Shown here: in pieces, positions 1,623 through 21,039 of the stretch
How positions within the stretch are numbered: the first letter of the stretch is position 1
Layout: every line of letters starts with the position of its first letter
Assembly (NCBI GenBank): GCA_028821605.1
Contig: JAPPFM010000010.1
Span: 1 to 64,000 of the forward strand
Direction of reading: 5' to 3'
DNA: 64,000 nt
Source: Candidatus Poribacteria bacterium
GTDB taxonomy: Bacteria > Poribacteria > WGA-4E > WGA-3G
Translations under genes and position numbers: made by a program
The notes under the pieces: generated by a model
Told to the model about the DNA's origin: nothing
What the model saw: the letters and a program-made list of their open reading frames with translations, nothing else
Database searches by the model: none

Positions 1623-2240
1623 TTAACGCAAAGTATCGAGATAGCGTCTCGCCTGTTCTTTAGCGTTTGTGGAAACCATAACGCCTGACATGACAGCGAC
1701 ACCGAAAGCTCCGACAGTTAAACACTCCGTAACCCGTGCTGGTGTAACCCCACCTAACGCGAAGACGGGTAATCTAACATTTTCTACCATCTTCGCGAGT
1801 CCCTCTACACCGACCGCGGGACCGTATCCGGGTTTGCTCGCTGTGGGGTAGATTGGACTATAGGTGACGAAATCCGCACCTTCCGCTTCCCGTTTTTGTG
1901 CTGCATCAAGGTTATGCACCGAGCATCCGATATAGAAATCATCTGTGGTTTGTGCTTTTATTTTCCCTACAGGTGCTGCGTTCGCTGATAGATGAACCCC
2001 TGCCGCACCTACATGGTGTGCAATCTGTGCGTTCGTGTTTATGAAAAGTTTCGCCTCGTAATTTCGACACACCTCGGCGATCGGTTGTGCCAATTGAAGT
2101 AACTCGGGATCGTCTAAATCCTTTTCGCGCAATTGAATAGCGGTAACACCGGCATCTAACAATTCAGAAACGACATCCACTAACGGAGTAGGTACACATT
2201 GGTGTTTGTCTGTGATGGCGTACAACCTGAAGTCAATCAT
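1623..2240 (-). CDS. thiE: Thiamine-phosphate synthase
   Basis: The 205-residue protein joins HMP-pyrophosphate and thiazole phosphate to give thiamine monophosphate. Visible TIM-barrel blocks are AITDKHQC, TAIQLREKDLDD (pyrophosphate and substrate binding), LFINTNAQIAHHVGAAGVHL, and the C-terminal phosphate loop FALGGVTPARV. It overlaps rsmB by four bases (ATGA), so translation is probably coupled. The neighbour thiD supplies its substrate. TenI, a close homologue, is the main alternative; the lysine in the QLREKD motif and the thiD neighbour favour ThiE. Confidence 0.88.
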   Translation of the reverse strand: MIDFRLYAITDKHQCVPTPLVDVVSELLDAGVTAIQLREKDLDDPELLQLAQPIAEVCRNYEAKLFINTNAQIAHHVGAAGVHLSANAAPVGKIKAQTTDDFYIGCSVHNLDAAQKREAEGADFVTYSPIYPTASKPGYGPAVGVEGLAKMVENVRLPVFALGGVTPARVTECLTVGAFGVAVMSGVMVSTNAKEQARRYLDTLR

Positions 2241-3622
2241 TTTGCCGAGATCCGTCGGAGGCGTGCCGCGAACGCACCATCAACGCCGTGTTCATGTGGA
2301 AATGTCTGAACGAAGCCTTGTGGTGTTATTGCGTTTGGTGGAACGTCGGGCAAAAAACTTCGGGCATTTTCTATCCGATACATCGGGAATTCTGCCAAAA
2401 ACCGCTGGATGAGGTTCTCATTTTCCATCGGTTCTATGCTACAGGTACTGTAGACGAGGATGCCTCCCGGTTTAATGTGTTGTGCTGCATTCTTCAACAG
2501 GCTATATTGCATATCACTGAGAGCCTGGACCTGCTTGGCGGTCTTGTTCCACCGGATATCAGGATGTCGCCGAAGGGTTCCGAACCCTGAGCACGGCGCG
2601 TCGATAAGCACGGCATCTGCGGTTTCGACAAAACCGAGATCGGCTTTTGTCGCGTCCGTCATTCGGGTTTCGACATTACGCGCATTGACCCGTTGACAGT
2701 TCTTTTGCAAGCGTGCTATTTTTTTCTCCGATACATCCACGGCGATAATTTTTCCTGCATTACGCATGAGATGCGCGAGGTGTGTCGTTTTGCCACCCGG
2801 TGCAGCACATAAATCCACTATGAATTCCGATGTCTCCGGTGAGAGCAGCGGTGCCACTAACATCGCACTCTCATCTTGGACATAGATGTCCTCTCGGTTG
2901 AGAATATCCTTTAGCGTCTGTTCGTTGGTAGTATCAAAGGTGGTGATGGCACGGTTTTCGAGCGTTATTCCGTCGGGTGCGATTTTGGAGGCGGTTGCGG
3001 CAATACCGCTCATCTCTAACGATTGACAAACTTCTTCACGTTGTGTCAGGTGGGTATTCACGCGGAGTGAAAGCGGTGCGATCTGATTGCTCGCGCGACA
3101 GAATGCCAACGTCCACGAAACGCCACGCGTCTGAAGCCATCGCTCTACCACCCACGTCGGGTAGGACAACGAAAGTGCAATGTGTTCGGTCGGGTTTTCA
3201 TCGAGCGATGGATAGGTTAATGTTGTGCCGTTGCGTTGCACAGAACGGAGTACTGCGTTGATGAATCCCGCTGCCTTCCGTCTATTGGAGGATTTGCGTG
3301 GATGGGGAGTAGCGAGTTGGACGGTTTCAAAGATCGCTGCGTGTGCTGGTATTCCATCGAGATGTAACAGTTGAAACGCGCCGAGTCGCAAGATATTGCG
3401 ATGCCGCGCGTCTAATTGAAATTTGGGATTAATAAACTGATCCAGCACCCAATCCAGCTGCTTCTGCCATCGGATAACGCCGTAGACAAGTCCATTTACC
3501 AATCGACGTTCACGTCCGTCGATTGTGTGCCTTCCAAATGCTCTGTCAACAACAGATGCTATGGGTGTGCTGCTGTGCGAGAGTGTTAACAGGCATTCTA
3601 AGGCGACTTTACGTGCGTTCAT
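2237..3622 (-). CDS. rsmB: 16S rRNA m5C967 methyltransferase
   Basis: The 461-residue protein methylates a cytosine of 16S rRNA. An N-terminal NusB-like helical RNA-binding domain spans about residues 1-135. The SAM-dependent Rossmann domain follows: DLCAAPGGKT at 270-279, DAPCSGFGTLRRHPDIRW from 341 and YSTCSIEPMENE around 391-402. The two cysteines needed by this class are visible at 344 (DAPC) and 394 (STC). It lies between rpsT and thiE on the same strand and overlaps thiE by four bases. Family length and motifs are normal. Confidence 0.93.
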   Translation of the reverse strand: MNARKVALECLLTLSHSSTPIASVVDRAFGRHTIDGRERRLVNGLVYGVIRWQKQLDWVLDQFINPKFQLDARHRNILRLGAFQLLHLDGIPAHAAIFETVQLATPHPRKSSNRRKAAGFINAVLRSVQRNGTTLTYPSLDENPTEHIALSLSYPTWVVERWLQTRGVSWTLAFCRASNQIAPLSLRVNTHLTQREEVCQSLEMSGIAATASKIAPDGITLENRAITTFDTTNEQTLKDILNREDIYVQDESAMLVAPLLSPETSEFIVDLCAAPGGKTTHLAHLMRNAGKIIAVDVSEKKIARLQKNCQRVNARNVETRMTDATKADLGFVETADAVLIDAPCSGFGTLRRHPDIRWNKTAKQVQALSDMQYSLLKNAAQHIKPGGILVYSTCSIEPMENENLIQRFLAEFPMYRIENARSFLPDVPPNAITPQGFVQTFPHEHGVDGAFAARLRRISAK

Positions 3623-6843: not shown

Positions 6844-6946
6844 AGCTTAGGATTTACGCAGCATCCCTTGCTGGCGAGGTTTAAAACCTCGCCAGCAGCG
6901 TGCGGGTCGTAGGTACTTATCAGCAAATTCCGTAAGTCCTAAAGCT
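6844..6946. repeat. Miniature inverted-repeat element, about 103 bp
   Basis: The ends are inverted copies, AGCTTAGGATTTACG at 6844-6858 and its partner at 6931-6946 (AGCTTTAGGACTTACG read on the minus strand). The middle is a perfect 13-bp palindromic arm pair (6870-6882 and 6884-6896, GCTGGCGAGGTTT). No gene fits inside. The same end sequence TAGGACTTACG bounds a larger element at 21138-21374, and both carry a GCGAGG/CCTCGC palindrome. It lies just upstream of the gene at 6972. The remaining bases from 6688 to 6843 show only a 15-base repeat TAAGCACCTTAGATA (6816-6830), shared with 36407-36421. Confidence 0.7.
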
Positions 6947-6971
6947 TAAAAACGGCAATGGGGTGTATCCG

Positions 6972-8906
6972 ATGCAATTTAATTTTATTCGACAGAGTAG
7001 ACAGTGCTTGCTGCTGCGAATTGTCCAAAAAATCTGTATTTTCGGAATGATGCTGGCAGTTGTATCCTTTTCGGCTGCAGATTCCGGTATAAGCCAGCGG
7101 GATATTTTTGTCGGTGCGAGTGCCCGCGCAGTTGGCATGGGAAGTGCTTTCACTGCCGGTCCGTCGGCGACCAACGGTTTTTTGTGGAACCCATCTTCAT
7201 TAGGATTTATGAATGGCGTGGAAGTCAATATGGGCGGGATGCCGCTTCCCGGAAATGTATCGAGCCGCGATCAGGCGTTTTCAGTCGCAGCGAATCCGCA
7301 CACGTTCGGTTTGACGAACAGAAATCTGGGAAATATCTCCTTCGCGACGTGGCTTGATGGTTGGAAAAATAACACGAGGGAGTCTACACAGATCGTCCTT
7401 TTAGGATACGGACTGGCACTCGGACAGAGGGCATCAGCGGGGACAAACCTCCGCTACTATCAGAATAACACACCCATCAGAACGAATTTCTTATGGAGTG
7501 TGGATTTGGGAATGCAATTCGCCTACCCATTGGAAAGATGGGGTGATGAACTGACGGTCGGCGTGAATTTCTCCGAATTGAGCAGCGGTATTCGAGAAAA
7601 CGGCGTACTCCTTGAGAGCGCGCCTTTAGCCGCACGTTTCGGCACAACTTATGAGTTGGGCAGTGAGACCCTTTTTTCTGCTGACCTTGCTGTTCGAGGA
7701 TCGAACGACGCGGTTGGTGGGGAACGGTTCCGATTGCATATCGGTGCTGAACGTTGGCTCATTGATGGACACGTCGGATTACGCCTCGGTTATACCGCTT
7801 TGACTGCTTCTGAAAGGTTCTGGAATGGTGAGTTAGCACGAGGCTTCAGTTTCCGAAACTCGGCAGGACAGCTTGATTATGCGTACGTCACTGGTAGTGA
7901 ATTGGCACGGGGCATTCATTGGATCTCTGCAACATTGCGCTGGGGTGGGAACGGCACAGCCCCCGTATCGGTAGCGACGCGCACTGAGGCATCGGATGCC
8001 GATGATGCTGCGCCGATTTTAATGCCGGAAGCACTCATCGTGGACCCTGAAACCATTAGTGGAGAATTAAATCTCTCCGAGCAAGCGATTTCACCGAATG
8101 GCGATGGTGTTTCGGATAGCACCACATTTCGCCTAAGTTTTGAAGATAGCATCGCACCCCTACGGTGGCAGTTGAACATCACCGATGAATACACCGAAAG
8201 CGTCTGGAGGAAATCTGGAACGGATATTCCTTCAACGGGTGTTGTCTGGGATGGGATTGCGGATACTGGCAATTTAGTCCCTGATGGTGACTATGAGGTG
8301 CAACTCCACATTGTTGACGCACAAGGCACACCGTACCTGAAAGATATTAAGGATCTCACGATTGACCTCATTCCAACGACATTAGAGATTTCTGGGAGTG
8401 CACCCGCGACCGTCGCTGTGAAAGCGTGGGATATTAATCCGCTTACGCATTGGAAACTTGAACTTTTCGATACGGAAAATGTGCTTGTCGAACAGATGGA
8501 AGGAAACGGTTCGCCGCCCGCCGAAGTCTTTTTGAGCAAGGTTCAGACACAGCCAGCTACTACATACATTTGCAAGCTGCAGGTTCAGGACATCGCGGGG
8601 AATCGGAGCACAGAACAAACGCAGCTGCAACTCGGTGCTGGCAGTCAATCGGCGACAGTATCTGCAGCACGGCTCACATTGATGGTTGGCTCTTTTGCAC
8701 AACCCTACAATGCCGAACTGATGGCTGCGAATCTGCAGCGTATGAATCCGGACGAGAAGGTACAAATCTATACAGCTGTGGTTGACGCGAGAACAGTGCA
8801 TCGGGTAACGATTGGAGAATTTGCAGCACGGGAGGAGGCAACCGGTCTCAAACAACACATTCAAGAGACACAGGGGATTGAACCGGTATTGATTACGCTC
8901 CAATAA
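6972..8906 (+). CDS. PorV/UPF0164-like outer-membrane protein with FlgD-like and SPOR domains
   Basis: This 644-residue protein has a signal peptide (about residues 1-36). A beta-barrel of the PorV/UPF0164 type follows, recognised by DIFVGASARAVGMGSAFTA and FLWNPSSLGFMNG. Near residue 373 a FlgD-like Ig domain begins (AISPNGDGVSDSTTFRLSF, later VVWDGIADTGNLVPDGDYEV). The last 75 residues form a SPOR domain (LTLMVGSFAQPYNAELMAAN to VTIGEFAAREEA), which normally binds denuded peptidoglycan. The fusion would tie an outer-membrane barrel to the cell wall. I use ATG 6972; an in-frame GTG at 6963 is possible, and both have weak ribosome sites. Domain calls are from motif recognition. Confidence 0.7.
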   Translation: MQFNFIRQSRQCLLLRIVQKICIFGMMLAVVSFSAADSGISQRDIFVGASARAVGMGSAFTAGPSATNGFLWNPSSLGFMNGVEVNMGGMPLPGNVSSRDQAFSVAANPHTFGLTNRNLGNISFATWLDGWKNNTRESTQIVLLGYGLALGQRASAGTNLRYYQNNTPIRTNFLWSVDLGMQFAYPLERWGDELTVGVNFSELSSGIRENGVLLESAPLAARFGTTYELGSETLFSADLAVRGSNDAVGGERFRLHIGAERWLIDGHVGLRLGYTALTASERFWNGELARGFSFRNSAGQLDYAYVTGSELARGIHWISATLRWGGNGTAPVSVATRTEASDADDAAPILMPEALIVDPETISGELNLSEQAISPNGDGVSDSTTFRLSFEDSIAPLRWQLNITDEYTESVWRKSGTDIPSTGVVWDGIADTGNLVPDGDYEVQLHIVDAQGTPYLKDIKDLTIDLIPTTLEISGSAPATVAVKAWDINPLTHWKLELFDTENVLVEQMEGNGSPPAEVFLSKVQTQPATTYICKLQVQDIAGNRSTEQTQLQLGAGSQSATVSAARLTLMVGSFAQPYNAELMAANLQRMNPDEKVQIYTAVVDARTVHRVTIGEFAAREEATGLKQHIQETQGIEPVLITLQ

Positions 8907-8957: not shown

Positions 8958-10235
8958 TTATCGGTTAGCCTCATGACACATAGGACTTTTAGGGGTCGGT
9001 GTTGTTGCTAAGGTAGAAGCAGGATGATTTCCCGCCTGAGATAGATTCCGTAGTCCCTCATTAATAACCGGTCCGCCTAAGCAGGATTTTAGTGATTTTC
9101 CAACGCTTTGAATATTACTCAGTTCCAACGCTTGGGTCAGGTCCAGCTGCGCCTGCATAAGCCAGTCAGTAAAACACGTTTTTCGGATAGGATGCTCCTG
9201 CCATTCCCCTGCGAAGTTTTCAAGCGGGTTTACCGGATTAGGTATAAGAGCCATACCATTGCTATCATACTTAATATGACAAGACATTTCTCCTACAATT
9301 TTCAACAGAGTTCGTTGGAGATCTGCCTCGTTGTCATAGACCTGAGCCGCAAGTGTCGTAATGATGATAGAGAGGGGCTTAGCCTTTTCGTCGTAGGCAG
9401 ATTGATTTTCGTTAAACCAGATGTCGCGGTGCCGTTTCAATATCTGGATAGTTCGTTGAAGTGGCGTTTTGACCTTATATCCCGGAACCTCCTCAACTCG
9501 CCGTTGGATTGATTCAGCAAAAGACTTTCGGATCACGTCGAACTGGACTTGCATGCAACTTCGGAACCATTCTGTATACCCCTTGGGATTGCTATGAGGC
9601 CAGTCAGGACTGACTTTGGAGTAACTGGAGAGGGTATTATCCGTAATTGCAACCGTGGAATCTGCCCCATTAGGCAGCACGTAACGGTATGATTCAATAA
9701 GTTGTTTGAAAGACTCCGCGTCTGGAATTGTGGGCAAGATATTGATATGAAATTGAGCACCATCGGCGTAATTCAGCGTCCAGCAATGCTTACTTTCTTC
9801 TGGTCGAGAGTACATGTCGTTAGCACGGGCATAAGACTTGATTTCGTCCCCAACTAAACACTTTAGTTTCTCTTGACTTATCTCGGTTTTCTGAAGGCTC
9901 AACTCACTGACAAGGTCTATGTCGTACTCTTCAGCACCAGAAACAGGTTTTATAACTGTGCCAAGCAGAAAAGAGCCTTGTGGATAAATTTCAGGCTTGT
10001 AGCAAGCAACTACAGATTCGTCTCGTTCTAGCCATGCTCCGATAGATTTGTAGCGTTTTGTCGCTTGTTCGTAATAACTTTCAGGAATGTCCAATGCGTT
10101 GGCTATGGCCTCAAGCGGTGAACTGGATTCTCGCTCAAGCCTTTCATAGACGACTTTGTCTACGGCTCGTTGAATCTGTCTTTTTGTAAACTTCCCTCGT
10201 TTGGGTGGATATTTAATAGTTCTTTGTCTTGCCAT
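8958..10235 (-). CDS. CD-NTase-like nucleotidyltransferase with a changed catalytic residue
   Basis: This 425-residue protein is a cGAS/DncV-like nucleotidyltransferase of CBASS anti-phage systems. The motif YPQGSFLLGT (Gly87-Ser88) and EYDIDLV (Asp105, Asp107) are intact. The third metal-binding acid, expected about 58 residues on, is Asn165 (QFHINILP). The paralogue at 12868-14784 has Asp at that place (QFHMDILP). This predicts loss or change of synthase activity. The protein stops right after the nucleotidyltransferase core and lacks the E2-like tail of its paralogue. The start is ATG 10235, with GAGGTG six bases upstream. It lies 33 bases after a candidate effector gene, so the two form a pair. 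Confidence 0.8.
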   Translation of the reverse strand: MARQRTIKYPPKRGKFTKRQIQRAVDKVVYERLERESSSPLEAIANALDIPESYYEQATKRYKSIGAWLERDESVVACYKPEIYPQGSFLLGTVIKPVSGAEEYDIDLVSELSLQKTEISQEKLKCLVGDEIKSYARANDMYSRPEESKHCWTLNYADGAQFHINILPTIPDAESFKQLIESYRYVLPNGADSTVAITDNTLSSYSKVSPDWPHSNPKGYTEWFRSCMQVQFDVIRKSFAESIQRRVEEVPGYKVKTPLQRTIQILKRHRDIWFNENQSAYDEKAKPLSIIITTLAAQVYDNEADLQRTLLKIVGEMSCHIKYDSNGMALIPNPVNPLENFAGEWQEHPIRKTCFTDWLMQAQLDLTQALELSNIQSVGKSLKSCLGGPVINEGLRNLSQAGNHPASTLATTPTPKSPMCHEANR

Positions 10236-10268
10236 GTGAATCACCTCTCTGAATCACATTTCGATAGG

Positions 10269-10889
10269 TTACTCGCTATTTCTTTCCAGCCATCTTGCAA
10301 TCACCAAAGCATAATCATTAAAAATCAAATCCTCAGCATCCAATCGAAGTTCTTCAGCTGTTTGAGGTAGATCCCTCAGAAAAGTCTGATAACGTTCCCA
10401 AATGATACTTCCACCAGGGATCGTCTGCCTCTCGGAAGCGTTGCGGAGCCAGTTACGAACGGCTTTAACGATTGTCTCAGCATCGTTTTTATGCGCATGA
10501 ATGTCCTGTCCAGCGATATCCGAAATAAACTGTTGATACCGATACGATTCTTTATCCAAGACAAGACATTTTTTCCTTTTTTGTTCGGCCATTCCAAATT
10601 TCTTTGCACCCAGAAAAACACCTAATTCCAGAGGCATGTTAAACCGAGGGAATCCCGAATTCTTATCTAATTCCGTTCTGGATATATCGTGAATGCCGTA
10701 ACGACAGACCTCAATAATGTTATAAATTTTATCGATTCGTACCTGGCTCGCGTCTTCTTCCTCAAGAGCACACCGAGCAACGAAACCACAATCATGTATC
10801 GTGAACACTATCGCATCAAACAACGGCTTATAATCTGAATCAAAGGGACAATTGATAAATACATTGTCATTGTAGTAAGGACGGTTCAT
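10269..10889 (-). CDS. Candidate CBASS effector, Rossmann/TIR-like nucleotide-binding fold
   Basis: This 206-residue protein begins NDNVFINCPFDSDYKPLFDA, followed by VFTIHDCGFVARCALEEEDA, RIDKIYNIIEVCRYGIHDIS and FNMPLELGVFLGAKKFG. The pattern of a beta strand with a small polar loop, a charged helix and a late acidic residue before a helix resembles TIR domains and nucleoside 2-deoxyribosyltransferases. No membrane segment or signal peptide is seen. It is immediately upstream of the CD-NTase-like gene in the same direction, with its own promoter at 11038-11067, which is the position of a CBASS effector. An NAD- or nucleotide-cleaving role is inferred only. The family itself I recognise but cannot name with certainty. 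Confidence 0.55.
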   Translation of the reverse strand: MNRPYYNDNVFINCPFDSDYKPLFDAIVFTIHDCGFVARCALEEEDASQVRIDKIYNIIEVCRYGIHDISRTELDKNSGFPRFNMPLELGVFLGAKKFGMAEQKRKKCLVLDKESYRYQQFISDIAGQDIHAHKNDAETIVKAVRNWLRNASERQTIPGGSIIWERYQTFLRDLPQTAEELRLDAEDLIFNDYALVIARWLERNSE

Positions 10890-10946
10890 AGCACTTCCTG
10901 TCTGAACTTCAGGTTTTCACAGATTTACATCTGACGAGGACTGTGT

Positions 10947-10965
10947 AGCAGTTTTTAATTCTGCT
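10947..10965. repeat. Small hairpin in the leader of the effector gene
   Basis: AGCAG (10947-10951) and CTGCT (10961-10965) form a five-base-pair stem. On the plus strand it is followed by five T residues. It lies in the predicted 140-base leader between the promoter at 11038-11067 and the gene start at 10889. It is weak and may be chance. Confidence 0.25.
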
Positions 10966-11037
10966 TTTTCCCGACTCCCGTCTTATATAGATAATCCGTG
11001 ATTCAGATGCCAGCTATGCACAACCCTGATACCATTA

Positions 11038-11067
11038 ATAATACCATATCTATTAGAAAAATATCAA
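11038..11067 (-). promoter_or_regulatory. Promoter of the second CBASS-like pair
   Basis: On the minus strand TTGATA (11062-11067), an 18-base spacer and TATTAT (11038-11043). The bases ATGGTATTAT around the -10 box are identical to those at the operon promoter 15259-15287, which suggests a common regulator or common origin. The gap 10890-11517 otherwise holds a gene remnant at 11157-11285 and no other clear feature. Confidence 0.55.
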
Positions 11068-11156
11068 GGTGAAATGCAATTTAAAGCCCAGATGTTTGTT
11101 GTCAAACTCCGAGAGAGCCTGAAGACCAACTATGCTTGGATGTTCCGTTCACTACC

Positions 11157-11285
11157 TATCTACTCATCAACATACCTACTTGGAAAAGGAATGCCTTCAA
11201 CTTAGGTCTTGCCAACTCTGTCGTGGGTCGCAGTTGGCTTTTTTCTACCGTGGATCTCGGCTCAGCGTAGAGCGTCTCATGCAGT
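11157..11285 (-). pseudogene. Decayed 3' end of a gene like the 16875-19838 nuclease-methyltransferase
   Basis: Read on the minus strand, 11285-11160 encodes LHETLYAEPRSTVEKSQL, then TELARPKLKAF. The intact gene ends with LREILCAEPSIHGGKVEKC, then AELAKMKLKGIP. At DNA level the stretch GGCATTCCTTTTCC and the bases after it are shared with 16890-16920. The fragment has no start, and an in-frame stop lies just upstream. It is a relic of about 40 codons lying between the two CD-NTase modules, evidence that an island rearrangement or duplication left it behind. Confidence 0.65.
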
Positions 11286-11517
11286 CCGGTCTACTTCATG
11301 GAGAGAAAAATCAGATAGTTTTCTTTCCATCTAGTGGAGCCGTATGCGCTTTGATGAGCACACTCTATAAAGATTACTCCGCTCGAATGCTAGGTCATAT
11401 GGACATGCGATGAGTCGCCCTACTGCAAACATTTATATTTTCCGATGCCATAGTAAAGAGGTATTTTCCAACCTTCATGTGTATTGAGGACTGAAAAAAT
11501 GAACTCGTTTGTGGATT

Positions 11518-12693
11518 TCATAAGCGTGAATTGATCTTAAGGACTGTCCTTAATCCATTCTGATCATCATATTCACATGCGAAAATTTCAGGATCTGATT
11601 TTGGTAGAAGGACCCGACCACATTCAACGGCAATTGGTGCTGGAGCTGCTGGGATAATAGAGATTTGGCAAGAGTCTCCATGCGTAGATTGAATCTCGTT
11701 CAGCAATTTCCTGTATTCACGACTGAACTCTTCTAACTGTTTACGAGACTTTAAAAAATGTGGAAAAGGATTTTCAATGGTTATCTCATAAACACTGAAA
11801 TTCTCCGAAACCAACGGTTCATGCCGATCACTATCAATTTTTCCACTTAGAGACAATACGATTGCAACGCTTGTACTATCCTTGTTAACATGAAGAGGAT
11901 TCACGATGTAGTGCGTTTCTGTGTCCTGTTCCTCCTTGGGCCAGGACCAGGTATGGTTTGTGTCATCAATATTTCTGTGTGACTGGTACAAATCCGCTGG
12001 AACAGTATCACCAATGCACTTTCCCAAGAACATTAATAGTGGCATAGGGCCAATAGCAAATACCGAGAGATGCTTAATCTCTTTTCCATCTACTCCTGCG
12101 TCAAAGCACCACTTGATTTTTCGCTGAATATCTCCAGCAAAAGCCTGCCAGTACTCTATATCGCTGTGACCGTCAAAATCGTCTCTTTCAATCCTAATTC
12201 CTTTTTCATCAGCAGGGAATTTGGGAAACATTGCATTGCGATAGGCCTCGGGGTTAATTGGAACAATCCTTTCGCCTATATTAACGGAGAACAATAGTAC
12301 CGTAGATTTATGGATCTCCTCTGGATACCTCGTTTGAATCTCGATTCTTTCCTCATGCTTTTTTTTCCACTCCCGCAGTAACTCCACCGGATATTTCTCA
12401 TAATTAGCGTCAATCTCTATATGACACCTTTGACACAATAGCATAAGGTTAGAAAATTCGATTTGCAGATTTGCAGATTCCTCGCTGCCTCTTGGACCGT
12501 CTTCACTAGCAGCTATAATATGAGCTACCTCCCCAAAATTTCCATCGGTTAACGTCAGGTCATTACGCCAAACGAGTTTGTTACAGCCACTAAATTCACA
12601 ACGCCCTGCTGACTTACCGAACAATTTCAACTTAGTATGCAAGGGCACATTTTTGCGAGTAATCTTGGGTTTTGGTTTCCTATTCTTAGTCAT
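11518..12693 (-). CDS. cap5: Cap5-type HNH-SAVED effector nuclease
   Basis: This 391-residue protein has an N-terminal HNH nuclease (about residues 20-110): zinc-type cysteines 32, 37, 87 and 90, then His58, Asn82 and His91 (EVAHII, SNLMLLCQRCH). The C-terminal half is a SAVED domain, the cyclic-nucleotide sensor of CBASS, with YWQAFAGDIQ, HLSVFAIGPMPLLMFLGKCI and IIPAAPAPIAVECGR followed by PKSDP. In the Cap5 family, binding of a cyclic nucleotide made by the partner CD-NTase triggers the HNH domain to degrade DNA. A good ribosome site AAGGAG precedes ATG 12693. It lies downstream of the CD-NTase-E2 gene in the same direction (gap 174 bases). The exact signal molecule cannot be read from sequence. 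Confidence 0.88.
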   Translation of the reverse strand: MTKNRKPKPKITRKNVPLHTKLKLFGKSAGRCEFSGCNKLVWRNDLTLTDGNFGEVAHIIAASEDGPRGSEESANLQIEFSNLMLLCQRCHIEIDANYEKYPVELLREWKKKHEERIEIQTRYPEEIHKSTVLLFSVNIGERIVPINPEAYRNAMFPKFPADEKGIRIERDDFDGHSDIEYWQAFAGDIQRKIKWCFDAGVDGKEIKHLSVFAIGPMPLLMFLGKCIGDTVPADLYQSHRNIDDTNHTWSWPKEEQDTETHYIVNPLHVNKDSTSVAIVLSLSGKIDSDRHEPLVSENFSVYEITIENPFPHFLKSRKQLEEFSREYRKLLNEIQSTHGDSCQISIIPAAPAPIAVECGRVLLPKSDPEIFACEYDDQNGLRTVLKINSRL

Positions 12694-12867
12694 ATGTTTA
12701 ATCTCCTTATTTTTTTATGATAGGTCTGAACTCTGATTATCTACTTCAGGACTCACCTATAATCCTAGTGATTGAAATTAAGGCCGGATTCAGCTCTCCT
12801 ACCCTTCTAATATCAAATGAATTGTGGTCCGCAATCGCGATCCGTTCTACTAAGTCAGTTATCATTA

Positions 12868-14784
12868 TCAACGCATTCTTTCACCAGATAAAATATGTTC
12901 TGCTAGCCCCACCGGCGGTTTTGTCACGTAATGTGTCTGACGAATTGCAACATCAGATGCTGCTTTCCTTCTACTACGTTTTACGGATTCAACTTGATCC
13001 ATGTGGCATTTTTTATACTTTTTACCACTTCCGCATGGGCACAAATCGTTTCTGCTAGGGTGAAGTTTTGCTAGATTTAACATCTCCGCTTCATATTCCA
13101 CCAACCCTTTTTTTCCATGTGAGTATTCGCCCCAAAGATCCTTGCGATTAGCGACAATCCCGAATTTCGCTGTGTAAGCAAGTTGATAAAAAAATGGAAT
13201 TACCTGTTCAGGAAGGAACTCTTTGATGCAAAGATTCCTGTTACCTCCGTATTTGATGCCTAAGCAACAACTGTCATCTTCAGGGTAAAAATGCAGATCA
13301 ATGATTGGAACATTGTATTTTTTTGAGATTCGATGGTGTCTGCCTCCAATCTCAAACACTTTTGGCCACCCATTCGCGTCTGGACTATCCAAGCGTATTT
13401 CAATCTCGAAAATGTCCTTAATGAAGCGGTCTATTCCTCTGGCATGCTCGCCAATTACCAATTTTCCCACCCTGTTGTCGTAGGCAGCACAAAAATGGAG
13501 TTCTCCGATTATTTTTGAAGAACTTGGCTCGTATTGTAAAGTGGGAAAGTATGATTCTAACCATTTGATTTCATCGTCTGTTATCTTCATGGTCGAAATC
13601 ACTGCATCTATAGTTTTCTGCTGTGCATAGAGTTTTCCGGGCTTTATTGATGCTGACAGAGTAGACACATAAACACTTTTCGACTCAGGAAGGTTCCTTA
13701 CTCCTTCATTGATAACTCGTTCGCCCAAGCACGATTTTAACGATTTTCCAACGCTCTGGATATCACTCATTTCTAACGCGTGGGTCAGATCTGACTGTGC
13801 CTGTTTAAGCCAATCTATGAAACACTCTTTTCGGATAGGATGTTCCTGCCATTTGTCGGCAAAATTTTCAAGTGGATTTACTGGATTGGGTATGAGAGTT
13901 ATACCGTTATCATCACGTTTAATATGCTTATGCATGTTACTTACCACATTCGACAACGCTTCTTGAAGGTCTGCTTCGTTGTTGTAAGCAAAAGCGGCGA
14001 GCGTTGTAATAATGATGGAAATCGGTTTAGCCTCTTCATCGTAATCGGATTTGTTCACTTCAAACCAGATGTCGCGGTGTCGTTTTAATATCTGAATTGT
14101 TCGCTGAAGTGGCGTTTTGACTTTATACTCTGGCACATCTTCAACTCGCAGTTGAATTGACTCAGCAAGAGACTTTCGGATCGCGTTGAACTGAATTTCC
14201 ATGCGACTTCTGAACCACTCTGCATATCCCCTTGGATTACTACAAGGCCAGTCCGGATGGATTCGCGTATAATTAGGGTGAGTCCTATCAGTAATGGCAA
14301 TCGCGGAATCTGACCAGTTAGACGGTGAGTAACCTTTTGACTCAAGGAGTTGTCTAAACGGCTCTGCATCTGGAATCGCTGGCAAGATGTCCATGTGAAA
14401 TTGAACATCATCCGCATAATGAAGCGTCCAACAACGTTTCCCTTCTTCTACTGGAGAATTTATGTCATTTTCACGGATGTAGGACTTAATTTCGTCCCCG
14501 ACTAAATTCTTTAGATATGCTTGGCTGATTTTATTTTTCTGAAGACTCAACTCGCTGACAAGGTCTATGTCATACTCTTCGACATCGGAAATAGGTTTCG
14601 TAACTGTGCCAATCAGAAAAGAACCTTGTGGGTAAATATCAGGACTGTAGCCAGCAACTATAGATTCATCCCGTTCGAGCCATGCACCAATAGATTCATA
14701 GCGTTTTACGGCTTGTTCGTAGTAGTTTTCAGGGATATCTAATGCTTCAGATATGGTCTCGAGCAGTGAACTAAAATTATACAT
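12868..14784 (-). CDS. CD-NTase fused to an E2-like domain and SEC-C motif
   Basis: This 638-residue protein has three parts. Residues 1-370 are a CD-NTase with YPQGSFLIGT (Gly54-Ser55), YDIDLV (Asp72, Asp74) and a third acid Asp132 (QFHMDILP), so the synthase looks active. Residues about 405-565 resemble the E2-like domain of type II CBASS: VFEIGGRHHRI, then HFYPEDDSCCLG (His498, Cys506, Cys507), then VIPFFYQLAYTAKFG and a GEYSHGKKG block. Residues 578-594 are a SEC-C zinc motif (NDLCPCGSGKKYKKCH). E2-like proteins in short type II CBASS act on the CD-NTase, so a fusion is mechanistically sensible. I choose ATG 14784, which has AAGGAGG eight bases upstream; the ATG at 14802 overlaps that site. 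A long paralogue lies at 8958-10235. Confidence 0.82.
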   Translation of the reverse strand: MYNFSSLLETISEALDIPENYYEQAVKRYESIGAWLERDESIVAGYSPDIYPQGSFLIGTVTKPISDVEEYDIDLVSELSLQKNKISQAYLKNLVGDEIKSYIRENDINSPVEEGKRCWTLHYADDVQFHMDILPAIPDAEPFRQLLESKGYSPSNWSDSAIAITDRTHPNYTRIHPDWPCSNPRGYAEWFRSRMEIQFNAIRKSLAESIQLRVEDVPEYKVKTPLQRTIQILKRHRDIWFEVNKSDYDEEAKPISIIITTLAAFAYNNEADLQEALSNVVSNMHKHIKRDDNGITLIPNPVNPLENFADKWQEHPIRKECFIDWLKQAQSDLTHALEMSDIQSVGKSLKSCLGERVINEGVRNLPESKSVYVSTLSASIKPGKLYAQQKTIDAVISTMKITDDEIKWLESYFPTLQYEPSSSKIIGELHFCAAYDNRVGKLVIGEHARGIDRFIKDIFEIEIRLDSPDANGWPKVFEIGGRHHRISKKYNVPIIDLHFYPEDDSCCLGIKYGGNRNLCIKEFLPEQVIPFFYQLAYTAKFGIVANRKDLWGEYSHGKKGLVEYEAEMLNLAKLHPSRNDLCPCGSGKKYKKCHMDQVESVKRSRRKAASDVAIRQTHYVTKPPVGLAEHILSGERMR

Positions 14785-14822
14785 GGGAGAATCCTCCTTC
14801 ATTTTTGGAAAGTTTTGACTGA

Positions 14823-14843
14823 TTCTGTTGATTGCTAACAGAA
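14823..14843. repeat. Small inverted repeat before the CD-NTase gene
   Basis: TTCTGTT (14823-14829) and AACAGAA (14837-14843) form a perfect seven-base-pair stem with a seven-base loop in the 110-base gap between the 14895 gene and the CD-NTase-E2 gene. It has no U-tract, so it is not a standard terminator; a processing or regulator site is possible. Confidence 0.35.
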
Positions 14844-14894
14844 CCGTTTGAAGTTAGAAAAACAATTGAAAATTCCATATTAGTCCCTCCGTTA

Positions 14895-15209
14895 TCAATG
14901 GTTAGATTTCCTTGGTTTTGTGACAACTAATTCAAATTCCCCATTCTTTCGCTGAGCAGCACTATGTCTGAACGTGGAATGTTGTTCTTGATGAGCATCA
15001 ACGGTACTGGGAGTTTCAACCTCAACAATTTTGGTTCGACTCCTCCGTGTTGCCAGAATGTCAGGAATTCTCCCATCGTCACCGATTGGATCCGGCTGAT
15101 CGAAATTCGGTAGATCAGCCTGAACTTTCCACCCTTTGTCTTTAAGCTCATTCGCGAGAGCACGAACACAACGATCATGGGTGGATTGGTTTTTGCTTTG
15201 CCTACTCAT
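14895..15209 (-). CDS. Small PD-(D/E)xK-like protein of the CBASS operon
   Basis: This 104-residue protein is the first gene of the leftward island operon. It carries GRIPDILATRRS followed by TKIVEVETPSTVDAHQEQHS. The spacing of Asp50 and Glu63-x-Glu65 resembles a PD-(D/E)xK nuclease core in which the usual Lys is Glu. The protein is short for a nuclease and lacks other domains, so it could be an accessory, a regulator or a nuclease that acts as a multimer. The strong ribosome site AAAGGAGG and a near-consensus promoter (15259-15287) show it is a real gene. I do not recognise a named family. Confidence 0.55.
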   Translation of the reverse strand: MSRQSKNQSTHDRCVRALANELKDKGWKVQADLPNFDQPDPIGDDGRIPDILATRRSRTKIVEVETPSTVDAHQEQHSTFRHSAAQRKNGEFELVVTKPRKSNH

Positions 15210-15258
15210 TGTAAGTTCCTCCTTTGTATTAAGACATAGGCTAAATCATATATTGTAT

Positions 15259-15287
15259 ATAATACCATTAAAAACCCTACATGTCAA
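15259..15287 (-). promoter_or_regulatory. Near-consensus promoter of the CBASS operon
   Basis: On the minus strand a perfect TTGACA (15282-15287), a 17-base spacer and TATTAT (15259-15264). The -10 region ATGGTATTAT also occurs at the promoter 11038-11067. A promoter this strong in a defence operon is likely held down by a repressor, and the divergent regulator at 15529 is the obvious candidate. Confidence 0.75.
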
Positions 15288-15459
15288 GGGAATTTTTTAC
15301 GTTTTATATTTTCTTTTTTTTGAACTTATTATTTTTTAAATTTTAAAATATAAATTAAATTTAAACTAAAAACTAATTTTTATATATTAATTACAACCAA
15401 TAACGAATAAAAAGCCAAAAAATTAGGAAAATCCCGTAAAAACCGAATATGTTTTAGCC
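15288..15459. other. Very AT-rich divergent intergenic region
   Basis: This 172-base stretch is far richer in A and T than the genes around it. It contains the perfect palindrome ATTTTAAAAT at 15340-15349 and several other A/T palindromes. It separates the CBASS promoter (minus strand) from the regulator promoter (plus strand), so it probably holds the operator or a DNA-bending site. Confidence 0.6.
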
Positions 15460-15488
15460 TTTACTTAAAATTTGTTTCCTGATATAAT
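15460..15488 (+). promoter_or_regulatory. Promoter of the HTH-metallopeptidase gene
   Basis: TTTACT (15460-15465), a 17-base spacer and a perfect TATAAT (15483-15488). The start codon is at 15529, with GGGAGG at 15512-15517. Confidence 0.6.
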
Positions 15489-15528
15489 ATATTTGCTTGT
15501 GCATTATCATTGGGAGGGAATAACTGTC

Positions 15529-16767
15529 ATGAAATTAGGAGAGCGCCTTCGTCTCATTCGTAAAGAAAAAAAGTTAACCTTAAAGGATTTGAGTCAACGC
15601 GCGGATCTCTCTGTGCCGTATCTTTCAGATATGGAACGCGATGTTGTGAATCCATCTGTGGAAACCTTGCAAAAAATTGCCAAAGCGTATAGTATGACAG
15701 TCAAAGATCTTTTTAGTGGTGTAGAAGAGTTAGGAGAATCGACGCGTACTACGTACCCTACAGGATTTGAAGCGTTCTTAATGGACTTCGAGTCCAGCTA
15801 TGGAACTATTAATGATGACTGGAAAGAGTTACTGCTGAAAATCAACTTTCGTGGTAGACGACCGTCTTCTCAAACGGAGTGGCTTGAATTGTATCTTTCT
15901 CTCAAGCGGATTCTTTCAACCAGGGAGGAAAAGGTGGACGACCCAAAAAAATATATTATCAACTTGGTTCAGAATACTGTCAGAGAATATAGTTCAACGC
16001 AGATTCCTACTTTCGACGAGATATGCACTGGCTTGGAGTTAGATGTGCAGGAAGTCCCATTACCCCTTGGAATAGACGGGATACATAGAGGAAAGACAAT
16101 TTTCATTAATTCCCAGATTCAGAATGAAGAACGTAAGCGATTTACGCAATTTCATGAAGTCACACATTATTTGATTGAAAAGGACGGGGATTTAATCTCT
16201 GAACTGCACGATGCTACTTGGAATCAAGATGATGGATATGAAAGGCTCTTAGAACAACTTTGTAACATTGGTGCAGCTGAGTTTTTAATGCCGAGAAAGA
16301 TATTTGCCAGACTCTATAAAGAAAGGGAGTTTAATGTTGAACTGATACCATATGCTGCGCGTTACTTTGGGAGTTCAACAGTAGCGACAACTATACAACT
16401 GGCTCAAGTTGCCCCAAATTCGTGCATTACTGCTGTTTGCGAATTAATGCATAGCGATCCAAAATCGTCGCAAACTCATTTTTCTACTGCAAAGGATAAT
16501 TCCACCAAGCAAAAATTGCATATAGTCTATTCCGCCTCGTCACCCGCAACTAAATATGTGTTGGCAAGATACACAGTTATTCCCGATGATCACTTAATCA
16601 GCGAAGCATCTTTGCAAACTCAGCCTGTTGAAGGGGAGAGTTACGTCCCCTTTCGGAGTGGCAAGAAGATGCCTTGTCACTGCGAGGCATTGACAGATGG
16701 CGACAGGATTTATGCATTATTCCATTTGACCCCTCCATCGAATCCTGACCAATTACCACTTATTTGA
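15529..16767 (+). CDS. XRE-type HTH regulator fused to an ImmA/IrrE metallopeptidase
   Basis: This 412-residue protein begins with a helix-turn-helix of the XRE type (GERLRLIRKEKKLTLKDLSQ, DLSVPYLSDMERD; residues 3-60). The middle holds an ImmA/IrrE (COG2856) zinc-peptidase motif, HEVTH at 209-213, with QLCNIGAAEFLMP beyond it. A C-terminal region of about 120 residues has no clear identity. CBASS operons are often controlled by a repressor (CapH) and a metallopeptidase (CapP) that cuts it after DNA damage; this protein joins both functions. It is transcribed away from the CBASS operon across an AT-rich gap. The start is ATG 15529 with GGGAGG upstream; an earlier in-frame ATG at 15472 lies before the -10 box and is rejected. 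Confidence 0.85.
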   Translation: MKLGERLRLIRKEKKLTLKDLSQRADLSVPYLSDMERDVVNPSVETLQKIAKAYSMTVKDLFSGVEELGESTRTTYPTGFEAFLMDFESSYGTINDDWKELLLKINFRGRRPSSQTEWLELYLSLKRILSTREEKVDDPKKYIINLVQNTVREYSSTQIPTFDEICTGLELDVQEVPLPLGIDGIHRGKTIFINSQIQNEERKRFTQFHEVTHYLIEKDGDLISELHDATWNQDDGYERLLEQLCNIGAAEFLMPRKIFARLYKEREFNVELIPYAARYFGSSTVATTIQLAQVAPNSCITAVCELMHSDPKSSQTHFSTAKDNSTKQKLHIVYSASSPATKYVLARYTVIPDDHLISEASLQTQPVEGESYVPFRSGKKMPCHCEALTDGDRIYALFHLTPPSNPDQLPLI

Positions 16768-16874
16768 GATTTTTCCCGTTGATGAGATTAACTTTGAAGC
16801 ACTTGAGGCATTACGTGTGGAGATGGAGTTTCAACTGCTCTCTATGTATGGGATCATAGATTGTTCCTGCTGGA

Positions 16875-19838
16875 TTAATCAAGATACCAACTCGGAAAAG
16901 GAATGCCCTTCAGTTTCATCTTCGCCAACTCGGCATCAAGATTACATTTTTCCACTTTTCCTCCGTGTATACTCGGTTCAGCACAGAGTATCTCACGCAA
17001 AGTTTGCATTGAATCAAGCACGTTGTCGCTTGTAATTCCCAATACCTCAGTCAATAGATAACGATCTAATTCCTCGCGGACAGGGTCATGATCGCACTCG
17101 TTGAAAGGCAGCATTCGCTCATACTTCAATCGCTCAAAGACCTTATAAGCGTTTTCCAATGCTTCTTTAGAAAGCGATCGGACATCCAGTGTGGGTAGAG
17201 TTCTTAATGTTGTTAGCCTTAATTTTCCGCGTCCAGCAGTTTGTTTACCACTGTGCAACCAGTGACAAAAAAATCCCAATGTTGAGTTACACCAGAGTGT
17301 CCATGGAATTTCATGTTGAGGATTTTCAAATGCTACGTTGGTTACTGAGGTTGGACCTATCGTCGGCTCATGAGTAAAAAGTGCTATTACTGAGTTAGAA
17401 GTAAATCGCATAAACATGTTGTAATGCGTTCTACTGTTACGATCTATCCGTTTTTGTACTTTAGCTTCTGCATTCGGAATAGGTATTGCACGCGAATCTG
17501 GGAGCACAAGCATTGACCGCTGAACTTTGCTCTTTGCATTCCACAAGCAAGCGTACCCATCTTCGTTGGGTCGAAAACCTTCCACTTTACGAAACACACC
17601 TCTAACCTCAGCCAATCCCAAAGTCGCGATGTCTCCGACTTGACAAATTGGAAGTTCAGTAACCGTTTCTTGTAACGCTTGTAGTGGTAATTCCAATCTG
17701 CCTATTCTCAGTCGCTGTGCAGATTGAAGCACTACCATAGATTTCACACGCACAGCAATCCACCCTTCACCACGAGGTAACGGACAATCAAGCATATAAC
17801 CGAGAATTTCCTCTCCGACTTTTATTTCATTGCCGCCACTTTGCATATCTTCTAATCGGTAAGTGCCATTACTTCGGATGATTCTGTTTGTAATCTCTAA
17901 CGCCTCAAGTAAACTTTTTGGACGTTGGTTCAGGCAGACAAACTTGCCGCGACCTGTATTATCACCTTTTCCCTTTGTTGCTACAATGATACACTCTGCC
18001 ATCTCTGTATCGGCAGAAAAAGCACAATCACAATCTTTAGCCTCAGTTATAGTTATTACAATCACATCGCGATATTCTGTTGCCCACATGTCACGCAGTT
18101 TTTGGGAGGTTGGTGAAGCGAGCACCGTTGCCGGAAGGATAAAACCCATTGTACCTTTAGACTTAAGCATTCTGTGTGCAAGTTCTACAAAATAGGAGCT
18201 GAGTCCTGCTTGTCCATCCGCAAATCGCGTTTCTTTCTTATTGAGGGCTGCTTGCATTGCTTTAGTATATTCTTTAGGTCGGTCGTTTCCTTGAAATGGC
18301 GATTTAGCTCCATCTATTCCGGCTGGATCTGCTCCTGGTTTTGTGAAAGGAGGGTTCTGGATGAGGATGTCAAATTGTCCATAAGGAAAGGACCTCTGAA
18401 GGTCAACTATTACGTTTTCTTTGCCGCCCACCTGTTCTGCTTCTGCTTCCATTGTTGGTAGAAAAAGCTTGCGGCGCAGCAGTTCAAGTGAACCGACGGC
18501 GTAATCACCGCTTTCTAGTTTACCATAAGGTGCGGTAAGGATGCGCGTGTCACTTAGTTTTATATCAGGATACCTGCTTGCAAGAGCAGACCCTGTTAAG
18601 TGTGTGGCATTTGGCATGACATCTGCACCAGCGATATTTTCCTCAAGCATCTTTTGGTGAATGTCTCTACCGTTTCCGCCTTGCTGTTCATATAAAGACA
18701 AAATCCGTTGATAAACACCGTTGAGCAGCGCGCCTGTTCCGCAAGCGAAGTCTGCTACTTTCGGGAGTTTACCTTCCTGCAATTCAGGCAGTACAAGCGT
18801 TGATAACAATACTGCACTTTCGGGCAATGTGTAATTCGCCTTGACGTATTTTCTATCGGTGATTAACTTTTGGAAGACTATGCCCGCGAGTTCATGAATT
18901 TGCGCGATGTCGGTGTCAACGAGGTCTTTAGCTGCTTCACACAGCAGTTTTAAGACATGTTTAACCAGTTTGTCGTCCGTTGCGAGTGCCTTAACGAGCT
19001 CACGGGCATCTTCAAAGATGGGACGGTAGTTGACTTTAAGGATAGTGCTCCAATCCGCTATAACATCGGCGTAGTCAATTATAGGCAGGAGTTGACTAAG
19101 TGAACGGACGGATTTCATTTCTGCGCCTGCAAGCGAACTCTGGAAGACGAAGGCATCGGTGATAATCAATGCCGCCATGCGAAGGGTTTGTAGGTTGAGT
19201 TTTTCTTCTTCGTCTGTTTCATCTTTAGAGAAGACCTCTTGATGTAGGATTGCCTCAATTTTCGTCCCGATAGCACGGTGGTCAGTAATAGCATTTTCAA
19301 GTAGATGGGCTGCCCTATTGATGCTAAGTTCCATCTTTTCTGCTGCCTGTTCCAAATGGGAGTTGGGTATTGCTCCAACGTGTAACGCATTGGCGATGTC
19401 TGCAACTGTTCCTATCGCCCACCCGTCTTTTGGAAAGTGTCCAACAGTATCTCCGAGGGTACTGACGAGTTTGTACTGCAGATCGTTCGCCTCACGGAGT
19501 TGTGGATTGATGTTTTGTCCCGACATCGTTTTAAAACGGTCAGGGTAGAGAATTGCCATAACGTTATTAAGGGTTTTCTTGGAGGTAGAGTATTCTGCTT
19601 CAAGCTCGTGGACGAGTCTTGTCTCGGCTTGGGTAATGAGGGTTTTGGCGTTGGTCGTGGTAGCGAACTTGGCTTCGATACCGATCGGTTCTCTACCGCG
19701 TTCAATCACGAGTGCATCGAGTTCGCTGTTACCTCGGATGAAGGCGTTAACTTCGGTTTCGAGTTCCCATCCGTGGCGCATGTTTCGCAGGATGTTCACT
19801 AATTCGTTCGTGATTGTTGTTTCGCGTCGGTTCGGCAT
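16875..19838 (-). CDS. Nuclease-adenine methyltransferase fusion (type IIG-like)
   Basis: This 987-residue protein starts with a PD-(D/E)xK-like nuclease: SELDALVIERGREPIGIEAK has Asp41 and Glu55-x-Lys57. The centre is an N6-adenine methyltransferase with the SAM motif FACGTGALL near residue 365 and the catalytic motif QNPPFTKPG near residue 493. The last 300 residues look like a target-recognition region. A single polypeptide with nuclease, methylase and recognition parts fits a type IIG restriction-modification enzyme; a BREX-like methylase is the alternative. AAGGAGAC stands just upstream of the ATG. It converges with the HTH-metallopeptidase gene. A decayed copy of its 3' end lies at 11157-11285. 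No separate specificity or ATPase gene is next to it. Confidence 0.8.
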   Translation of the reverse strand: MPNRRETTITNELVNILRNMRHGWELETEVNAFIRGNSELDALVIERGREPIGIEAKFATTTNAKTLITQAETRLVHELEAEYSTSKKTLNNVMAILYPDRFKTMSGQNINPQLREANDLQYKLVSTLGDTVGHFPKDGWAIGTVADIANALHVGAIPNSHLEQAAEKMELSINRAAHLLENAITDHRAIGTKIEAILHQEVFSKDETDEEEKLNLQTLRMAALIITDAFVFQSSLAGAEMKSVRSLSQLLPIIDYADVIADWSTILKVNYRPIFEDARELVKALATDDKLVKHVLKLLCEAAKDLVDTDIAQIHELAGIVFQKLITDRKYVKANYTLPESAVLLSTLVLPELQEGKLPKVADFACGTGALLNGVYQRILSLYEQQGGNGRDIHQKMLEENIAGADVMPNATHLTGSALASRYPDIKLSDTRILTAPYGKLESGDYAVGSLELLRRKLFLPTMEAEAEQVGGKENVIVDLQRSFPYGQFDILIQNPPFTKPGADPAGIDGAKSPFQGNDRPKEYTKAMQAALNKKETRFADGQAGLSSYFVELAHRMLKSKGTMGFILPATVLASPTSQKLRDMWATEYRDVIVITITEAKDCDCAFSADTEMAECIIVATKGKGDNTGRGKFVCLNQRPKSLLEALEITNRIIRSNGTYRLEDMQSGGNEIKVGEEILGYMLDCPLPRGEGWIAVRVKSMVVLQSAQRLRIGRLELPLQALQETVTELPICQVGDIATLGLAEVRGVFRKVEGFRPNEDGYACLWNAKSKVQRSMLVLPDSRAIPIPNAEAKVQKRIDRNSRTHYNMFMRFTSNSVIALFTHEPTIGPTSVTNVAFENPQHEIPWTLWCNSTLGFFCHWLHSGKQTAGRGKLRLTTLRTLPTLDVRSLSKEALENAYKVFERLKYERMLPFNECDHDPVREELDRYLLTEVLGITSDNVLDSMQTLREILCAEPSIHGGKVEKCNLDAELAKMKLKGIPFPSWYLD

Positions 19839-20199: not shown

Positions 20200-21039
20200 C
20201 TATATCGAATAGAATTCCGCGGCGTTTTCATAAAAGAGTTTGTTCTTCTCGGTATCCGATGCATCCTCAACAGCCCATGAGAGTGCCGCGACCCACTCCT
20301 GATATGTCGCCGCCAAGGTACACACGGGCCAATCACTTCCAAACATCAATCGCTCATAACCGAATACCTCTATTAGATGCTGGATATACGGCTTCAGTTC
20401 CTCACGCGTCCAATTCTCGCTCGCTGTCGTCACAATCCCTGATATCTTGCAGTGGACGTTCTCAAAGGCAGCGAGTTCACGGACATGCGTTGCCCACGGT
20501 TCAAATCGCCCGCCTTTTATGTCCGGTCCTCCGCAGTGATTGAGGGCATGCCGTACATCCGGTGTTGCCTTAACGAGTTCAATCGCCGCAGGAAGCTGCG
20601 CGTGATTCGCACAGAGTTCAAAAGAGAGGTCAAACTTCGTAAGCAATTTCACGCCATTAATCAATTCAGGACTTGCGTAGAACTGTGGATCGGGATGATG
20701 CCACGCCATCCGACGCACACCCACGACAAGCCCGAACCCTGTGAGCTGCTCAAGAATAGCCTCGGCGTTCGGTTTTTCAAGCGGTGCCGCCGCTGCGATT
20801 GCACCTATCATACCATCTTCTTCCGATATCTGTGTTAACCACTCAACCTCCTTAACCACATCCGCTTCAGCTGGATCCCCTTCAACATGGACGGATCTGA
20901 GGACGTTAAGGTCTCCGATCGCCTCACGATAATCTTCCGCTGTATATCGTTTTCGCAATAGATCGAATCCTTCTAACCAAGGGTATTCCAAATTAGAGGT
21001 ATCCCAGAGGTGTTGGTGGGTATCAATTATTTTAAGCAT
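20200..21039 (-). CDS. Amidohydrolase-2 family (L-fuconolactonase-like)
   Basis: The 279-residue protein is a TIM-barrel metal hydrolase of PF04909. The metal-binding HxH is at residues 8 and 10 (IDTHQHLWD), and the C-terminal ligand block is RLMFGSDWPV. The N-terminal stretch YPWLEGFDLLRKRYTAEDY is typical of the fuconolactonase/BDLF subgroup, which opens sugar lactones. A ribosome site GAGGAG precedes the ATG. It has no obvious operon partner. The precise substrate is unknown; a role in breakdown of deoxy-sugars is plausible. Confidence 0.8.
   Translation of the reverse strand: MLKIIDTHQHLWDTSNLEYPWLEGFDLLRKRYTAEDYREAIGDLNVLRSVHVEGDPAEADVVKEVEWLTQISEEDGMIGAIAAAAPLEKPNAEAILEQLTGFGLVVGVRRMAWHHPDPQFYASPELINGVKLLTKFDLSFELCANHAQLPAAIELVKATPDVRHALNHCGGPDIKGGRFEPWATHVRELAAFENVHCKISGIVTTASENWTREELKPYIQHLIEVFGYERLMFGSDWPVCTLAATYQEWVAALSWAVEDASDTEKNKLFYENAAEFYSI

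Follow-up and report, generated by a model that had tools for sequence, protein, structure and literature searches.

We describe a gene in a 64,000-nucleotide stretch of Candidatus Poribacteria DNA (GenBank assembly GCA_028821605.1, contig JAPPFM010000010.1, positions 1 to 64,000; hereafter the window) that stands divergently beside an operon for cyclic oligonucleotide-based antiphage signaling (CBASS). We consider it likely that a DdrO-type repressor has here been fused head-to-tail to its cognate PprI/IrrE-type peptidase, forming a one-piece, self-inactivating switch for that operon, and that the switch probably responds to DNA damage. The coordinates of all features discussed are listed in Table 1. 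Genomes and loci used for comparison are cited by our own numbers (G and L).

A first-pass annotation had proposed that one protein at this site holds both a helix-turn-helix (HTH) and an HEVTH zinc-peptidase motif, and this was confirmed. Both are encoded by a single open reading frame (ORF), 15529–16767. In the 412-amino acid product, Pfam recognizes HTH_3 at residues 7–55 (3e-13) and Peptidase_M78 at residues 185–288 (7e-13), both exceeding the curated cut-offs, while PADLOC matches capH to residues 1–102 (1.6e-9) and capP to residues 146–304 (2.5e-23). The likely start is the ATG at 15529, with the Shine-Dalgarno sequence GGGAGGGA just upstream. The alternative TTG start at 15472, which belongs to the frame given in the first-pass annotation, would fall within the putative promoter of the fused gene. 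The same unbroken frame was found in G012, G002, G052, and G042, and in G001 as far as the contig edge. All domains of the fused protein are under purifying selection: among the fused genes of clade A (the window, G012, G002, G052, and G001), pairwise dN/dS is 0.13–0.16 overall and low in the HTH, C-terminal domain (CTD), M78, and GAF-like regions alike. An assembly artifact was therefore rejected as the source of the fusion, as the same continuous frame is present in five other genomes and dN/dS in clade A is low.

Judged by sequence and model, residues 1–130 are a whole DdrO-type repressor, including the C-terminal dimerization and cleavage domain. Sequence comparison with the PDB matched residues 1–129 to full-length DdrO (6jq1, 6e-32), and a tblastn search of plasmids aligned Deinococcus DdrO over residues 1–130 with up to 48% identity. 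The HTH residues share 61% identity over 66 amino acids with the N-terminal domain (NTD) of DdrO (6rnz), at a root mean square deviation (rmsd) of 0.7 Å. The AlphaFold2 model of the fused protein, built from a 26-row alignment (pLDDT 85.1, pTM 0.75), folds the DdrO half into eight helices, followed by an M78 domain (residues 139–293) and a beta-rich domain (residues 299–399). Over the full length of DdrO the fit is poor (rmsd 14 Å), which suggests that the two sub-domains of this half are placed differently in the model than in DdrO. DdrO is cleaved between an L and an R in the loop linking helices 7 and 8 (PMC8072749; PMC4374696). In our model, the loop of residues 105–114 sits between helices 7 and 8 and holds the predicted bond, F107-R108. 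The D. radiodurans cut site, E107-L108/R109-G110-K111-R112, aligns with N106-F107/R108-G109-R110-R111, so that the R, the G, and the second R are retained and the E and L are replaced. Every Poribacteria copy of the family, fused or split, has FRG at the cut site.

By the same two lines of evidence, residues 139–399 make up an entire M78 metallopeptidase of the PprI/IrrE type, GAF-like domain included. Residues 165–404 match PprI/IrrE in the PDB through the GAF-like domain (8slm, 7e-32; 3dte, 3e-28), and the H, E, and H of the HEXXH motif, together with E242, are invariant in all 13 aligned family peptidases. Patch 1 for single-stranded DNA (ssDNA) in PprI consists of R85, R207, and R267 (PMC10904395). 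R202 and R393 of the fused protein correspond to R85 and R267, with K at the second position in some relatives. The fused protein is both the sole M78 protein and the sole protein with a DdrO C-terminal domain in its host genome, which is 98% complete. With no other M78 peptidase or DdrO-like substrate in the genome, the reading that suggests itself is self-cleavage, whether in cis or between copies. A DdrO-type substrate for this peptidase, if it cuts one, would be its own chain or another copy of the protein.

We then turned to 85 genomes of the Poribacteria phylum, 14 of which carry the peptidase family: six as fused ORFs, of which one is truncated by the end of its contig, and eight in split form. 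The peptidase gene lies directly after a separate DdrO-like gene in all eight split loci. CBASS is faced by 10 of the 11 loci with a readable 5' flank (5/5 fused and 5/6 split), a count that excludes three loci ending at a contig edge and includes G027 on the strength of a patatin-type effector gene alone. The split pair of G007 is the sole assessable locus that does not face CBASS. Homologs unlinked to CBASS in most genomes would have told against the idea of the first-pass annotation, and this count speaks to the contrary. CBASS also lies next to two distant pairs, L047 and L050, whose repressors share this family's C-terminal domain.

Other defense-related settings were also observed, among split pairs as well as more distant relatives. 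At L047 (4268–9405), the distant DdrO-like/M78 pair faces a type II CBASS system with a SAVED-PDDEXK effector, a CD-NTase, and ThiF E1-E2 genes, and the layout of L048 is similar. At L042, two different repressor/M78 pairs (1756–3005 and 6874–8183) lie within 8 kb and alternate with two CBASS systems, one of the patatin type and one of the HNH-SAVED type. Several of the split pairs are the first genes of an operon that includes a type III restriction system; at L040 (10769–17858), the apparent operon led by such a pair contains an AAA ATPase as well as a type III methyltransferase and a type III restriction enzyme. In Mycobacteriales, Ardenticatenia, and another phylum (L064, L065, L045), PprI-like peptidases that have a GAF-like region occur together with DdrO-like genes; the defense-like neighbors there include, at L065, an Hma-type helicase and, at L064, PDC candidates. 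A scan of viral contigs gave one weak relative only, and the phages collection held no match spanning both halves of the fused protein. A phage origin is thus not indicated.

The fused forms do not form one clade. A single clade was rejected by approximately unbiased (AU) tests on the peptidase tree (p-AU 0.0019) and on the tree of repressor plus peptidase (p-AU 0.0003), and with it a single origin of the fusion. The fused form of G042 nests among split pairs, and clade A is sister to the G007 split pair. These trees support the view that split pairs became fused on two or more occasions. The split state is likely ancestral because relatives from Chloroflexi, Ardenticatenia, Mycobacteriales, and G159 genomes carry separate repressor and peptidase genes, an argument from parsimony rather than proof of polarity. 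The junction DNA is consistent with the trees. In G007, the repressor stop is overlapped by the peptidase GTG (GTGAATAA), and the junction GTG of the window is equivalent to the start of that separate gene. The clade A junction looks like a 1-nt loss at a G007-type overlap, with the GTG now in frame behind a relic Shine-Dalgarno. The junction of G042 differs from that of clade A.

GTG 15934 is a possible internal translation start, and it opens an alternative that we hold to be distinctly less probable than self-cleavage but worth serious attention. The fused protein could serve as the repressor while a separate, active peptidase is made from this GTG via the relic Shine-Dalgarno, giving largely a two-protein DdrO/PprI switch. 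The split G007 peptidase does begin at the equivalent GTG, behind AAGGAGG, and G042 keeps ATGAATCACATGAAA in frame. The fused genes of clade A keep GGAGG 5 nt before the in-frame GTG, but this GGAGG lies within K/R-E-E codons, where chance retention is possible, and just downstream in clade A a CCG is found in place of ATG.

We give little credence to a different proposal, that tethering has frozen the switch into a constitutive repressor, its protease inert or cleaving non-productively, as a step in the decay of the system. The fused copies have lost neither the catalytic residues nor the cut site, their dN/dS is low in each domain, and fused forms have arisen on at least two occasions and are maintained in six genomes. 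The appeal of the proposal is that decayed copies of the same island are known, as a peptidase remnant with a methyltransferase (G022/L046) and as a solitary HTH (G036/L044).

The fused gene was also said to face CBASS across an AT-rich gap, and it does, with CBASS genes recognized by PADLOC on the opposite side. GC is 0.30–0.32 in the sequence windows covering 15210–15528, compared with 0.40–0.44 on the flanks. Two putative promoters, near consensus and each with a TG before the -10, diverge from the gap. The TTGACAT at the -35 of the putative CBASS promoter is conserved in G012, G002, G052, G042, and G044, and the promoter block of the fused gene is conserved across both split and fused loci. 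Direct and inverted repeats within 15180–15560 are AT-rich and uninformative.

Several points weigh against a self-cleaving switch that controls CBASS. The position of PprI R207 in the ssDNA patch is not conserved in the family, where it is V, A, or T. In D. radiodurans DdrO, both E107 and L108 are essential to the PprI of that species (PMC4374696), and the fused protein has N106 and F107 in their place. Cleavage of DdrO is thought to take place in the monomer, the loop being hidden when the protein dimerizes (PMC8072749). Finally, a scan of 14 intergenic regions for the radiation/desiccation response motif (RDRM) gave scores equal to those of shuffled sequences, the Deinococcus RDRM being absent, and dyad enumeration in the same 14 regions gave above-chance dyads that were mostly A/T runs, none convincingly common to both promoters; neither search yielded a credible operator.

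Two-protein systems are known in which a protease cuts a repressor upon DNA damage and so controls an immune operon. For the one-piece switch, we propose by homology that the DdrO half would dimerize via its C-terminal domain in unstressed cells, repressing the CBASS promoter and probably also that of the fused gene. The peptidase half would become active upon DNA damage, through ssDNA induced by phage, or through metal after damage. Activation of PprI by ssDNA or metal has been shown (PMC10904395, PMC7907104), and activation of CapP has been stated (PMC13373217). The activated peptidase would then cleave, near F107-R108, either the repressor loop tethered to it (in cis) or that of a neighboring chain. 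Such a cut would part the DNA-binding domain from the dimerization domain, so that repression would be lost and CBASS expressed, probably together with the fused gene itself. More speculatively, the fragment of residues 108–412 could become an untethered protease that cuts further copies and sharpens the switch, and free protease might also be supplied by internal initiation at GTG 15934.

On balance, we lean toward regarding this protein as an M78 counterpart of LexA: a single-chain repressor that carries an ssDNA-activated sensor-protease along with the site to be cut, derived two or more times by fusion of a DdrO-PprI pair as an arming switch for CBASS, possibly with free protease from internal initiation amplifying cleavage in trans. 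A natural fusion of enzyme and substrate is strong genetic evidence of their partnership, and it makes sensing, cleavage, and de-repression testable together in one gene. It raises the question of whether M78 peptidases cut in cis, and the split forms in sister genomes are ready-made before/after comparisons. It also shows that close relatives of DdrO and PprI exist beyond the Deinococcus group, where they probably act as local controllers of immunity to phages.

Table 1. Features of the fused gene and its surroundings (positions in the window)
Feature	Position	Strand	Details or basis
Fused DdrO-PprI-like repressor/metallopeptidase gene	15529–16767	+	412 aa; ATG 15529, stop codon 16765–16767
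XRE-type HTH DNA-binding domain, residues 1–66, five helices as in DdrO	15529–15726	+	Pfam HTH_3; DdrO NTD 6rnz
DdrO-type C-terminal dimerization/cleavage domain, residues 67–130, three helices	15727–15918	+	Full-length DdrO match
Predicted cleavage bond F107-R108, alpha7-alpha8 loop (INFRGRRP), equivalent to DdrO L106-R107	15847–15852	+	Alignment to 6rnx/6jq1
Fusion junction: relic Shine-Dalgarno AGGGAGG (15922–15928), in-frame GTG (15934–15936)	15922–15936	+	Junction DNA of 11 loci
M78 (ImmA/IrrE) metallopeptidase domain, residues 139–293	15943–16407	+	Pfam PF06114; PprI 8slm; AlphaFold2/Foldseek
HEVTH zinc-binding/catalytic motif, residues 209–213	16153–16167	+	Invariance of H, E, H
Probable third zinc ligand, E242	16252–16254	+	Alignment to PprI; invariance
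GAF-like domain, residues 299–399, as in PprI/IrrE	16423–16725	+	8slm match; beta-rich fold
AT-rich divergent intergenic region, presumed operator region	15210–15528	.	319 bp
Putative CBASS promoter, TTGACA-17-TATTAT, TG before -10	15259–15287	-	
Putative fused-gene promoter, TTTACT-17-TATAAT, TG before -10	15460–15488	+	
104-aa ORF, first gene of divergent operon; weak AHJR-like (PDDEXK) nuclease match	14895–15209	-	E 4e-4, below cut-off
CBASS CD-NTase fused to E2-like/SEC-C domain, 644 aa	12868–14802	-	PADLOC cyclase 4e-141; E2 1e-23
CBASS effector HNH-SAVED	11518–12693	-	PADLOC E 1.7e-117
Second CBASS CD-NTase, 428 aa	8958–10244	-	PADLOC E 1.5e-131

The operon faced by the fused gene comprises the 104-aa ORF, the CD-NTase-E2 protein, HNH-SAVED, a 206-aa ORF, and the second CD-NTase. 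The 104-aa ORF has a 76% identical copy in G052, and in G002 only its first 26 residues are matched. The CD-NTase and the E2-like/SEC-C domain form one protein in the window and at L042 (620 aa), and are encoded by separate genes in G002 and G012 (407–413 aa and 219–220 aa, respectively). This makes a second gene fusion at the operon, in which the E2 follows the C-terminus of the CD-NTase; a CCLG motif is conserved in the E2 domain. The second CD-NTase is 70% identical to the first. The 206-aa ORF (10269–10889, minus strand), which lies between HNH-SAVED and the second CD-NTase, had no match in Pfam, NCBIfam, or PADLOC.

An Eco57I/PglX-like methyltransferase gene (16875–19838, minus strand) is convergent with the fused gene and is its neighbor in all clade A loci. 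The island as a whole (8958–19838) occupies a conserved chromosomal site between the genes at 6963–8906 and 20200–21039. In G012 and G002, these flanking genes enclose cargo that differs, and the 20200–21039 flank is also found bordering G001 and G036. Two decayed versions were seen: G036 (L044, 15464–15910) has the repressor half alone left at the same site, and G022 (L046, 4099–4386) has the methyltransferase and a C-terminal peptidase remnant that overlaps an HNH-SAVED remnant.

The first-pass annotation had tentatively read the fused protein as CapH and CapP in one chain, to be checked by structure prediction and alignment. The architecture it proposed stands, as the protein is a repressor/peptidase pair in one chain, with complete halves that are adjacent genes in sister genomes, but its nearest kin are DdrO and PprI/IrrE. 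Both halves were recognized, and the PDB matches to CapH (7t5u, 8e-5) and CapP (7t5t, 1e-3) are far weaker than those to DdrO and PprI. Foldseek ranked PprI first for the model (3e-19), followed by DdrO (3e-8), CapP (2e-7), and M. tuberculosis PrpR (4e-6); CapP is 18% identical to the fused protein by fold comparison. Given the PDB matches, the model, and the Foldseek ranking, the protein is best described as DdrO joined to PprI, which are closer kin than CapH/CapP. What it shares with CapH-CapP is an HTH repressor and an M78 peptidase on the promoter side of a CBASS operon, as well as matches to the PADLOC models, whereas CapH and CapP are two proteins and here there is a single ORF.

The likeness to DdrO-PprI extends through both halves, including the DdrO CTD, the cleavage loop, the HEXXH peptidase, and the GAF domain of PprI. 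Unlike that system, which has two proteins and controls a DNA-repair regulon, the fused protein is one polypeptide (with a two-gene form in sister genomes) and adjoins CBASS; no RDRM was found, F and N replace L and E at the cut site, and one of the three ssDNA-patch arginines is absent. LexA is alike in principle, as it unites a repressor with its cleaving peptidase in one chain, but it is an S24 serine/lysine autopeptidase with no homology to the M78 metallopeptidase here. PrlP of S. suis, also an S24 autoprotease, was set aside as not relevant.

Fusions of HTH and COG2856 (XRE-M78) are abundant and long known, and the analogy with LexA was drawn in 2009 (PMC2701414). RmrA, Rv2515c, and spr1629, as well as MtPrpR, also combine an N-terminal HTH and an M78-like domain in one chain. 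It is improbable, in our view, that the present protein is simply another of these, a general regulator whose peptidase target lies elsewhere and which came to stand beside CBASS by island clustering. Such fusions are present in other Poribacteria genomes, and the PADLOC RmrA models match both domains here, but the CBASS link is repeated from locus to locus. The RmrA-type fusions that we retrieved from Poribacteria and other genomes have an HTH and a mostly weak M78 domain, and a profile search of them (Rv2515c and spr1629 not being among them) detected no DdrO CTD (best E 0.17) and no GAF-like domain. The fused protein scores 1e-36 for the DdrO CTD and 4e-58 for the GAF-like domain, both below 1e-35, although partly by construction, as it is among the sequences from which the profiles were built; the information lies in the lack of both domains among the other proteins. 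A generic RmrA-type fusion was rejected on the absence of these two domains from the RmrA-type proteins retrieved. As far as sequence can tell, what is distinctive is not an HTH-M78 fusion as such, but one HTH-M78 protein that retains both the enzyme and its substrate segment.
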